Shown: piece after piece, positions 20,235 through 22,969 of the stretch
How the letters are laid out: each line of letters starts with the position of its first letter
How positions within the stretch are numbered: the first letter of the stretch is position 1
Origin: Hydrogenothermaceae bacterium
Lineage (GTDB): Bacteria; Aquificota; Aquificia; Aquificales; Hydrogenothermaceae
Direction of reading: 5' to 3'
Assembly: GCA_026418535.1 (NCBI GenBank)
Contig: JAOABC010000006.1
Location: forward strand, 1 to 64,000
Length of the DNA stretch: 64,000 nt
Notes under the pieces: model-generated
The model's input: the letters and a program-made list of their open reading frames with translations, nothing else
Database searches by the model: none
Told to the model about the DNA's origin: nothing
Program-made: the position numbers and the translations under genes

Positions 20235-20639
20235 TTAAACCTGAACCAGGTCTATTCTCTCTATGTTTATACCCTCTTCAAGGTTAGCAGGAATTATACC
20301 TCTTTCAGATATCTTCTCGTCTATCCTTTTAGGTTTTAGAGTTTTAATTATGTACTCCATAGCCTTGAAAGTTTTCTCCTTCCCACCACAGGTATAAACA
20401 TCTATAGCAGCGTATCCGTGCTCTGGCCAGGTATGGATTGAGATATGAGACTCCTCTAGTAGAATTACTCCTGTTGCTCCGTAAGGATTAAACTGGTGAT
20501 AGTGAGAAGAAAGTTTACTTAGATTTGCATACTTTACAGCACCTTCAAGAAGTGCTTTGATGTCTTCTACATGGTCTAATTTATCAAAATCAACTCCGTA
20601 AAGGTCAGCTAAGATATGCAGTCCGAGGGTTTTTTCCAT
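20235..20639 (-). CDS. speD: S-adenosylmethionine decarboxylase proenzyme
   Basis: Makes decarboxylated SAM, the aminopropyl donor for polyamines, which are important in thermophiles. The 134-residue prokaryotic class shows the self-processing site EESHISIHTWPE, cleaved between Glu63 and Ser64 to make the pyruvoyl group; His69 and Cys84 are the expected processing and catalytic residues. A strong AAGGAGG precedes its ATG. A 28-codon ORF with its own AGGAGG overlaps its start in another frame, which may regulate it. Confidence 0.96.
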   Translation of the reverse strand: MEKTLGLHILADLYGVDFDKLDHVEDIKALLEGAVKYANLSKLSSHYHQFNPYGATGVILLEESHISIHTWPEHGYAAIDVYTCGGKEKTFKAMEYIIKTLKPKRIDEKISERGIIPANLEEGINIERIDLVQV

Positions 20640-20695
20640 TTTCTTTCCTCCTTAATGATTTTTTCAAAAATTTTCGTCGGGCTACCACTGCCCAT
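20609..20695 (-). CDS. Possible 28-residue leader ORF overlapping speD
   Basis: An ATG at 20695 follows AAAGGAGG with a 10-base gap and opens a frame for MGSGSPTKIFEKIIKEER..., 28 residues, ending at a TAG at 20611-20609, that is 31 bases inside speD in the +1 frame. The speD ribosome site lies within it. It could be a translational attenuator for speD, or an accident; its peptide has no recognised relative. Confidence 0.4.
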   Translation of the reverse strand: MGSGSPTKIFEKIIKEERKWKKPSDCIS

Positions 20696-20833
20696 AGCAA
20701 AAAAACCTCCTTTGAAGTTAAAAAATGAAAGATATATTATAATTCATCTTTTAGATTTTTAAAAACAAATATACACAAAAAAAGTGCAAAGATTTTGTGT
20801 AAAATAATTTTAAAATTCTCAGAGGTTTAGCTG

Positions 20834-22711: not shown

Positions 22712-22969
22712 TTAGGATTCTAGTGGATATACGCTTACTACCTTCTTTCCTTTTGAAGTCTCAAACTTAACCTTCCCATCTATAAGGGCAAAGATAGTAT
22801 AGTCTTTTCCTAAACCTACATTTTTCCCAGGGTAAATCTTAGTTCCTCTCTGTCTTACAAGGATATTTCCTGCTCTAACAACCTGACCATCGTACCTCTT
22901 CACACCAAGGCGTTTAGATATACTATCACGACCGTTACGTGTAGAACCACCACTCGCTTTTGATGCCAT
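22712..22969 (-). CDS. rpmA: Ribosomal protein bL27
   Basis: An 85-residue basic protein with the diagnostic start [16 protein letters not shown] and the [17 protein letters not shown] core. bL27 sits at the peptidyl-transferase centre. It follows rplU by 12 bases, the standard rplU-rpmA pair. No N-terminal cleavage extension of the Firmicutes type is present. Confidence 0.98.

Follow-up and report, generated by a model that had tools for sequence, protein, structure and literature searches.

In the window, the 64,000-nucleotide stretch of DNA analysed here, the start of the adenosylmethionine decarboxylase gene speD is crossed by a small open reading frame (ORF) that has its own ATG and ribosome site, and an in-frame ATG ORF with the same stop codon is found at speD in 101 of 102 genomes of the order Aquificales, thermophilic relatives of Aquifex. 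The way in which nucleotides have changed over the overlap makes us confident that the small ORF is under selection as a translated peptide. The reading that we favour, with moderate confidence, is that it encodes a cis-acting leader peptide controlling the translation of speD in a peptide-dependent manner; the small ORF would probably act as a built-in brake on speD.

The small ORF at the start of speD

The sequence-only reading of the window had described a 28-codon ORF with an ATG and a ribosome site, containing the speD ribosome site and ending out of frame 31 bases inside speD, and this description is exact. The small ORF crosses the ribosome site and the start codon of speD in the +1 frame (Table 1). 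The identity of SpeD is given by Pfam PF02675 (E 4.4e-37) and by NCBIfam TIGR03330, whose match of 138.5 bits exceeds the 75.65 cut-off. Among the 63 window ORFs of at least 100 codons that were assigned an SD start by rule, we found one other case of an overlapping, out-of-frame ATG ORF preceded by an SD, which starts 5 bases before its gene; this low background, together with the conservation in 101 of 102 genomes, rules out a chance ORF. A minus-one frameshift leading from the small ORF into speD was also considered and rejected, since inspection of the overlap by eye revealed no conserved slip site. The sequence of the overlap is AAAAAACCC in the window's family, and in many genomes of family f2 it is CAAAGACCC.

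Table 1 Features at the start of speD in the window
Feature	Positions	Strand	Basis or remark
Probable promoter, TTTAAA, 16 nt, TATAAT	20736..20763	(-)	upstream of small ORF; 10/12 matches
AAAGGAGG, ribosome site of small ORF	20706..20713	(-)	10 nt 5' of ATG
Small overlapping ORF (putative leader peptide)	20609..20695	(-)	28 codons from ATG, then TAG; MGSGSPTKIFEKIIKEERKWKKPSDCIS then stop
GGGC/GCCC hairpin at start of small ORF (own family only)	20679..20693	(-)	G+C-rich stem of at least 4 pairs nearby
AAGGAGG, speD ribosome site, within small ORF	20647..20653	(-)	sequence
speD, adenosylmethionine decarboxylase, 134 aa	20235..20639	(-)	PF02675 and TIGR03330 matches
Frozen C-terminus, PSDCIS codons, over speD codons 4-10	20612..20629	(-)	third-position change counts
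TAG stop of small ORF	20609..20611	(-)	built from speD codons 10-11 (TTA GCT)

For the comparison among relatives, speD was searched for in 136 genomes of the phylum, 128 of which gave a match. The order set comprises the window's own family (f1) and families f2 and f3, whose 112 genomes include 102 with a readable speD 5' end; left out were seven genomes without a speD match, G090, which has a distant paralog only, and G042 and G109, in which the 5' end is missing. The second locus of G015 (L126) also stands outside the 102, though the ORF is present there, and the ORF of G035 (L099) was entered by hand alongside those found by the pattern. An in-frame ATG ORF with a TAG at speD offset +28 is present in all 39 genomes of f1, all 57 of f2 and five of the six of f3. 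G107 (f3) alone has lost it, by a TAG ahead of the speD ribosome site. Absence of the ORF from close relatives, which the sequence-only reading had named as grounds for giving up its proposal, is thus not what we found: across 101 of the 102 genomes the ORF is kept in frame and with a shared stop, at lengths of 19 to 49 residues. An SD match of at least four bases lies 5' of the small-ORF ATG in 96 of the 102 genomes, and of the five ORF-bearing genomes without one, three (all f3) have a weaker AGGGG, another is truncated by the end of its contig and the last has no site. The GGAGG of the speD ribosome site, at -12 to -8, is invariant in all 102. In 60 of these genomes a stop in the speD frame lies no more than five codons 5' of the speD ATG, so there speD must start as placed or further in.

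In the 96 genomes with an SD match of at least four bases, the predicted peptide is 19 to 49 residues long and has 80 distinct sequences. It ends in PSDCIS in 92 genomes of the order, in PSDCTL in five, in PSDSIL in three and in PSDCTS in one, and its C-terminal consensus is W-x-[KR]-P-S-D-[CS]-[IT]-[SL], the last three residues (CIS, CTS, CTL or SIL) differing among groups. Among the best 80 SpeD-related loci listed, all seven Aquificales loci have the small ORF. Three loci of genus g14 (L102, L106 and L108) carry a longer form of 46 to 49 residues, which begins MSEQDSKFRKR, is alike in its front part in all three and ends KWQKPSDSIL.

The region upstream of the small ORF holds four promoter-like sites against 2.3 expected. 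In f1, an exact TATAAT lies 5' of the ORF ATG in 37 of 39 genomes (shuffled mean 10.7, maximum 20), and the position of the best hexamer has a spread of 8.1 nt, against 15.4 nt in shuffled sequences. In f2, the best -10-like hexamer (TATAAT, TATACT or TATTAT) lies 30-45 bases 5' of the ORF ATG in all 56 loci scored, L126 included; in the repeat with shuffles, which omits L126, an exact TATAAT was found in 28 of 55 loci (shuffled mean 5.0, maximum 13), with a positional spread of 2.6 nt against 15.6 nt. Because of this short distance in f2, the small ORF should come first on the mRNA, with scant room for an aptamer, and the leader 5' of it is predicted to be very short. The small ORF has its own start and ribosome site, both conserved, and the -10-like hexamers would place it on the same mRNA as speD.

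Selection on the encoded peptide

In the overlap, each third position of a speD codon serves as a second position of the small ORF, whose wobble positions fall on the first positions of speD codons. For the quantification of change, substitutions were counted by parsimony over the 102 genomes on a tree made from later speD codons. The third positions of speD codons 4-10 underwent 0, 0, 1, 2, 2, 2 and 1 changes (sum 8), whereas codons 11-60 have a mean of 21.9; the lowest sum of any seven consecutive codons within codons 11-100 is 127, and the 40 other speD codons whose residue is identical in at least 98% of genomes have a mean of 23.2 changes. Past the stop of the small ORF, codon 11 has 24 changes, codon 12 has 3 and codon 13 has 17. 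The suppression of synonymous change that dual coding would confine to an overlap therefore holds for speD codons 4-10, with codon 12 also slow. The third base of codon 10 is A in 101 of the 102 genomes, and all 87 Leu residues at position 10 of SpeD are encoded by TTA or CTA, codons that together make up 11% of the Leu codons in the rest of speD in f2. In G107, which has lost the ORF, speD reads GGT at codon 6, TTA at codon 7 and ATT at codon 10, unlike its five f3 relatives.

The wobble positions of the small ORF vary at three sites, with 26 changes at speD nt 28 (Ser TCT, TCC or TCA; SpeD Leu or Ile), 11 at nt 10 (SpeD Thr or Ala) and 4 at nt 19, and at two of the three, nt 28 and nt 10, the SpeD residue changes as well. 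The wobble sites at nt 4, 7, 13, 16, 22 and 25 have 0, 0, 1, 0, 0 and 0 changes; the argument from wobble rests on the three varying sites because any change at the other six would alter SpeD. In G035, codon 5 of SpeD is Ile for Leu and the small ORF still encodes Pro (CCA for CCC). Over PSDCIS, then, the second positions are frozen and the tolerated wobble is free, which concentrates selection near the site where a leader peptide would arrest.

Slow evolution at the 5' ends of genes is common, and we therefore compared a control gene at window positions 22712-22969, which we take to be rpmA (recognised by eye). Over codons 2-10, the control has 36 third-position changes in 30 family genomes and speD has 0 in 39 family genomes; a general slowness of gene starts, which the control shows only mildly, was rejected as the explanation. 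Part of the conservation of CCCTC could have another cause, because all 19 genomes of the sister family f5, in which the ORF is mostly absent, keep CTC at codon 5 and 15 of them keep ACC at codon 4. The substitution pattern as a whole points to the peptide as the object of selection at the frozen sites, and not to RNA structure or chance.

The part of the small ORF before the overlap was compared by pN/pS in groups of equal-length sequences, those with fewer than four sequences being left unscored. In the 28-codon group of f2 (22 sequences), pN/pS is 0.42 in the ORF frame, the other two frames giving 0.95 and 1.14, and in this group Leu9 and Phe13 are unchanging despite 7 and 6 changes at their respective wobble bases. 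The ORF frame is also the lowest in smaller f2 groups, at 0.56 (others 1.04 and 1.88) and 0.64 (1.13 and 1.42), whereas in the 27-codon f2 group its 0.54 is undercut by frame +1 at 0.40, the third frame having 1.78. In the window's own family, the ORF frame gives 0.88 against 0.77 and 0.57 (29 codons, 22 sequences), 0.68 against 1.34 and 1.23 (31 codons, 5 sequences) and 2.35 against 1.41 and 0.32 (32 codons, 4 sequences), and these values do not clearly indicate coding constraint on the first half of the peptide in that family. The conserved core of the predicted peptide is its C-terminus, about 13 residues, of which the KEE/RED part is explained by the speD ribosome site and part of the remainder by speD itself.

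A proposed leader peptide acting at its own stop codon, and competing explanations

What the sequences show is the ORF, its conservation and the selection on its C-terminus; we infer the translation of the small ORF, the arrest, the repression and the identity of the signal. Ribosomes would load at the first strong ribosome site and translate 19-49 codons, passing over the ribosome site and start of speD. At the UAG inside speD, the conserved C-terminus would occupy the upper exit tunnel and slow or block termination, probably more so with abundant polyamines (or SAM or decarboxylated SAM). The arrested ribosome, with any others queued behind it, would cover the speD ribosome site and start, so that SpeD would be made only when the signal is low. 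A conserved C-terminus beside a fixed stop is characteristic of peptides that act in the exit tunnel at termination, and such an action is suggested here for that reason. A ribosome covers roughly 15 nt on the 5' side of the P site and 12-16 nt on its 3' side. With the stop codon in the A site, the P-site codon would be speD nt 26-28, and the arrested ribosome would cover speD from about nt 11-14 and clash with a ribosome initiating at nt 1, the edge of which would lie at about nt 16, while a queued ribosome would sit on the speD ribosome site itself. A delay in termination should repress speD because of this clash with initiation at its start. Polyamines are the natural signal to propose because they are the end product, as with the mammalian MAGDIS uORF, and on this analogy we name them tentatively, as a possible signal; SAM and decarboxylated SAM are equal candidates.

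The plain act of translating the ORF might instead dampen speD or couple it to the small ORF, by ribosomes that sweep over the speD start or restart there, with the sequence of the peptide and any signal being irrelevant. Two strong ribosome sites in series with an overlap make interference or coupling likely for any peptide, but this explanation accounts neither for the freezing of PSDC and the residues after it at the cost of codon freedom in speD, with the tolerated wobble varying, nor for the upstream hydrophobic residues of f2 that are kept through synonymous change; restart also appears poorly placed, as the stop lies 28 nt past the speD start. We consider it unlikely. Selection at the level of the peptide, and its position beside a possible target gene, would also suit a free micropeptide acting in trans, for example on SpeD in the manner of an antizyme or prozyme. 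Such a role is improbable, given that conservation is concentrated at the peptide end, that the length ranges from 19 to 49 with beginnings that differ among groups, and that the peptide is encoded in cis in all 101 ORF-bearing genomes; in the window's own genome, the sole one searched for an extra copy, the PSDC-to-TAG motif pattern matched at speD and nowhere else. Codon-specific attenuation, in which a stall on a scarce aminoacyl-tRNA (for example at Cys UGC or Ile AUA) would report the supply of an amino acid or of sulphur, could draw on the frozen part, which in most genomes contains a single Cys codon and a single Ile codon, AUA. The peptide has no run of a single amino acid, and the ORF is retained where Cys is replaced by Ser (three genomes) or Ile by Thr (six genomes), leaving this explanation with hardly any probability.

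A further possibility is a regulated fold, such as a riboswitch, made by the leader together with the beginning of speD, in which case the ORF would be incidental. A GGGC/GCCC-type hairpin, counted as a G+C-rich stem of at least four pairs near the ORF start, is present in 39 of 39 genomes of the window's family (a raw count with no shuffle baseline). One genome of this family (G085, locus L034) has GGCC..GGCC in place of GGGC..GCCC. Consensus folds were computed from loci with an accepted SD start, 39 in f1 and 54 in f2 after removal of duplicates. The sole helix of the f2 fold, which recurs in the f1 fold, joins GAGG of the speD ribosome site to CCUC in speD codons 4-5 by 4 bp, and the codon-5 CTC is the one that all 19 f5 genomes retain in a family mostly without the ORF. 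Against a regulated fold, the f2 consensus is at the level of the controls (z -0.03) and the f1 consensus is weak (z -1.55; 30 column shuffles each), the strand in the window folds no better than its shuffles (z 0.81), and Rfam gives no family on the leader at E 5 or better, with one weak match elsewhere in the searched stretch. The f2 leader is short, with its -10-like hexamer just 30-45 nt from the ATG, and the frozen sites track the codon positions of the ORF and end at its stop codon. Neither an Rfam match nor a conserved fold above controls was thus found for the speD leader, and RNA structure was set aside because Rfam, single-strand folding and consensus folding yield nothing that explains the pattern; we regard it as very improbable as the whole account, and the weak GAGG/CCUC pairing, possible in f1 and f2, may contribute.

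Known leader peptides, distribution and related observations

The uORF of mammalian AMD1 that encodes MAGDIS lies wholly upstream of its main ORF, without overlap, in a scanning system. At its stop codon polyamines stall the ribosome and thereby inhibit the main ORF, as described in PMC4505036. The speD small ORF resembles it as a small upstream ORF on the mRNA for the same enzyme activity, and both end in Ile-Ser-stop (in 92 of 102 genomes for speD), which is likely a coincidence. MAGDIS has six residues, whereas the peptide here has 19-49 and overlaps speD by 31 nt in a bacterium, and no homology is claimed; what we found is not a hexapeptide in a non-overlapping uORF, the endings here being DCIS, DCTS, DCTL and DSIL, and the analogy is one of working only. 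The proposal that a small ORF controls speD as in eukaryotes is partly supported, by the selection on the peptide that it predicts; the eukaryotic comparison stands as an analogy only.

Among bacterial leader peptides, SpeFL is not known to overlap its gene, speF. In gammaproteobacteria it stalls just before its own stop codon through inhibition of RF1 (PMC8429421), and it is an ornithine sensor that acts through Rho and downstream mRNA structure (PMC7815308). The likeness is that of a bacterial leader peptide on a polyamine-synthesis gene; the difference is that the speD small ORF overlaps its gene, so that arrest should repress and not induce. MdtU, the uORF of the spermidine exporter operon mdtJI of E. 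coli, is most strongly conserved at its C-terminus, has 34 codons and a stop 106 nt before mdtJ, and induces the exporter with the involvement of Rho (same article). Its conserved part, as in the speD small ORF, is the C-terminus next to the stop, and it is linked to spermidine, whereas the speD small ORF is on a biosynthesis gene, overlaps it and is predicted to repress. The tryptophanase leader TnaC responds to a small molecule, tryptophan, by inhibiting termination at its own UGA stop codon through RF2, and exerts Rho-dependent control over a catabolic operon (PMC8429421). It shares with the proposal for speD a short leader peptide and arrest at its own stop codon, and differs in UGA/RF2 and tryptophan against the TAG stop here. 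The expectation that a device of this kind would be new holds in part: the general device is known, from SpeFL and MdtU on other genes, while its placement on speD and the overlapping layout appear to be new. Searches of the open-licence PMC literature, with preprints outside the scope, turned up neither a leader peptide described for a bacterial speD nor an account of this peptide.

It is conceivable, and we put it forward with some reserve, that the small ORF is an independent bacterial counterpart of the animal AdoMetDC uORF, that is, an essentially order-wide, polyamine-sensing arrest peptide across the speD start that represses by a parked terminating ribosome. If so, feedback through an upstream small ORF on a key polyamine enzyme would have arisen separately in bacteria and animals, and the codon choice of speD would be locked to preserve the peptide, with sensor and target codons sharing the same nucleotides. 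The order is early-branching and probably relies on unusual polyamines that are long or branched. The window's own genome appears to have enzymes that would use the SpeD product, since genes for SpeE-type and BpsA-type aminopropyltransferases adjoin at G000:C11:250430-252184 (L256, L257), on a different contig from speD. The small ORF would be a precise arrest-peptide candidate, with 80 natural variants among 96 genomes. Its layout, in which a putative arrest peptide lies across the start of the gene it targets, is one that gene finders are likely to miss, and such overlaps could be found elsewhere through frozen synonymous sites at gene starts.

Beyond the order, both genomes of family f4 have an ATG ORF that ends KHWESTL at the same stop. 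In f5 (Desulfurobacteriaceae), a correctly framed TTG start with its ribosome site is present in five of 19 genomes, and no in-frame, SD-preceded start was accepted by rule in the other 14. Outside the phylum, the Aquificales-type peptide was found in none of the 70 archaeal and other bacterial loci among the best 80 SpeD loci listed, in a scan of SD-preceded overlapping ORFs with speD starts set by rule. Most simply read, the small ORF dates back to the base of the order or earlier, with a single loss among the genomes sampled. Viral carriers of the motif were considered as well and rejected: 18 viral contigs matched a 16-base pattern, and none of the 18 has the context of a speD start.

A second, distant SpeD-like gene in the window's own genome (G000:C23:24828-25166, L002) is 31% identical to the first, and no small ORF was seen by eye in the stretch upstream of it. 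Distant SpeD homologs can be arginine or ornithine decarboxylases, according to PMC10407285. Outside the phylum, the SpeD closest to that of Aquificota, among the best 80 loci listed, belongs to Thermoplasmata and DHVE2-type archaea. In archaeal loci with speD near 2001 (L134, L138-L147, L149-L151 and L153-L159), an out-of-frame ATG lies 7-16 nt 5' of the speD start, replaced by TTG in L143 and L144. These out-of-frame starts often have a GAGGTG-like site of their own, with GGAGG after them; the overlapping ORFs end variably (+50 to +104) and show no peptide conservation, yet the arrangement of starts recurs. Four f5 loci of genus g24 have, by eye, a hairpin with a ribosome-site-like sequence 5' of speD, GGGGAGGAGTCCCC in L111, L112 and L118 and GGGAGGAGTCCC in L110, and none of the four has a small ORF that was accepted in the frame overlapping speD. 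In five further f5 loci (L109, L113, L115, L120 and L122), TTGAGTGTTATTTAA, or a close variant of it, comes after GGAGG and gives, by eye, a four-codon ORF before speD, and in some of these loci the site is separated from the start by a small hairpin, GGC..GCC or GGT..ACC; the four-codon ORF is possibly a different leader device on speD.
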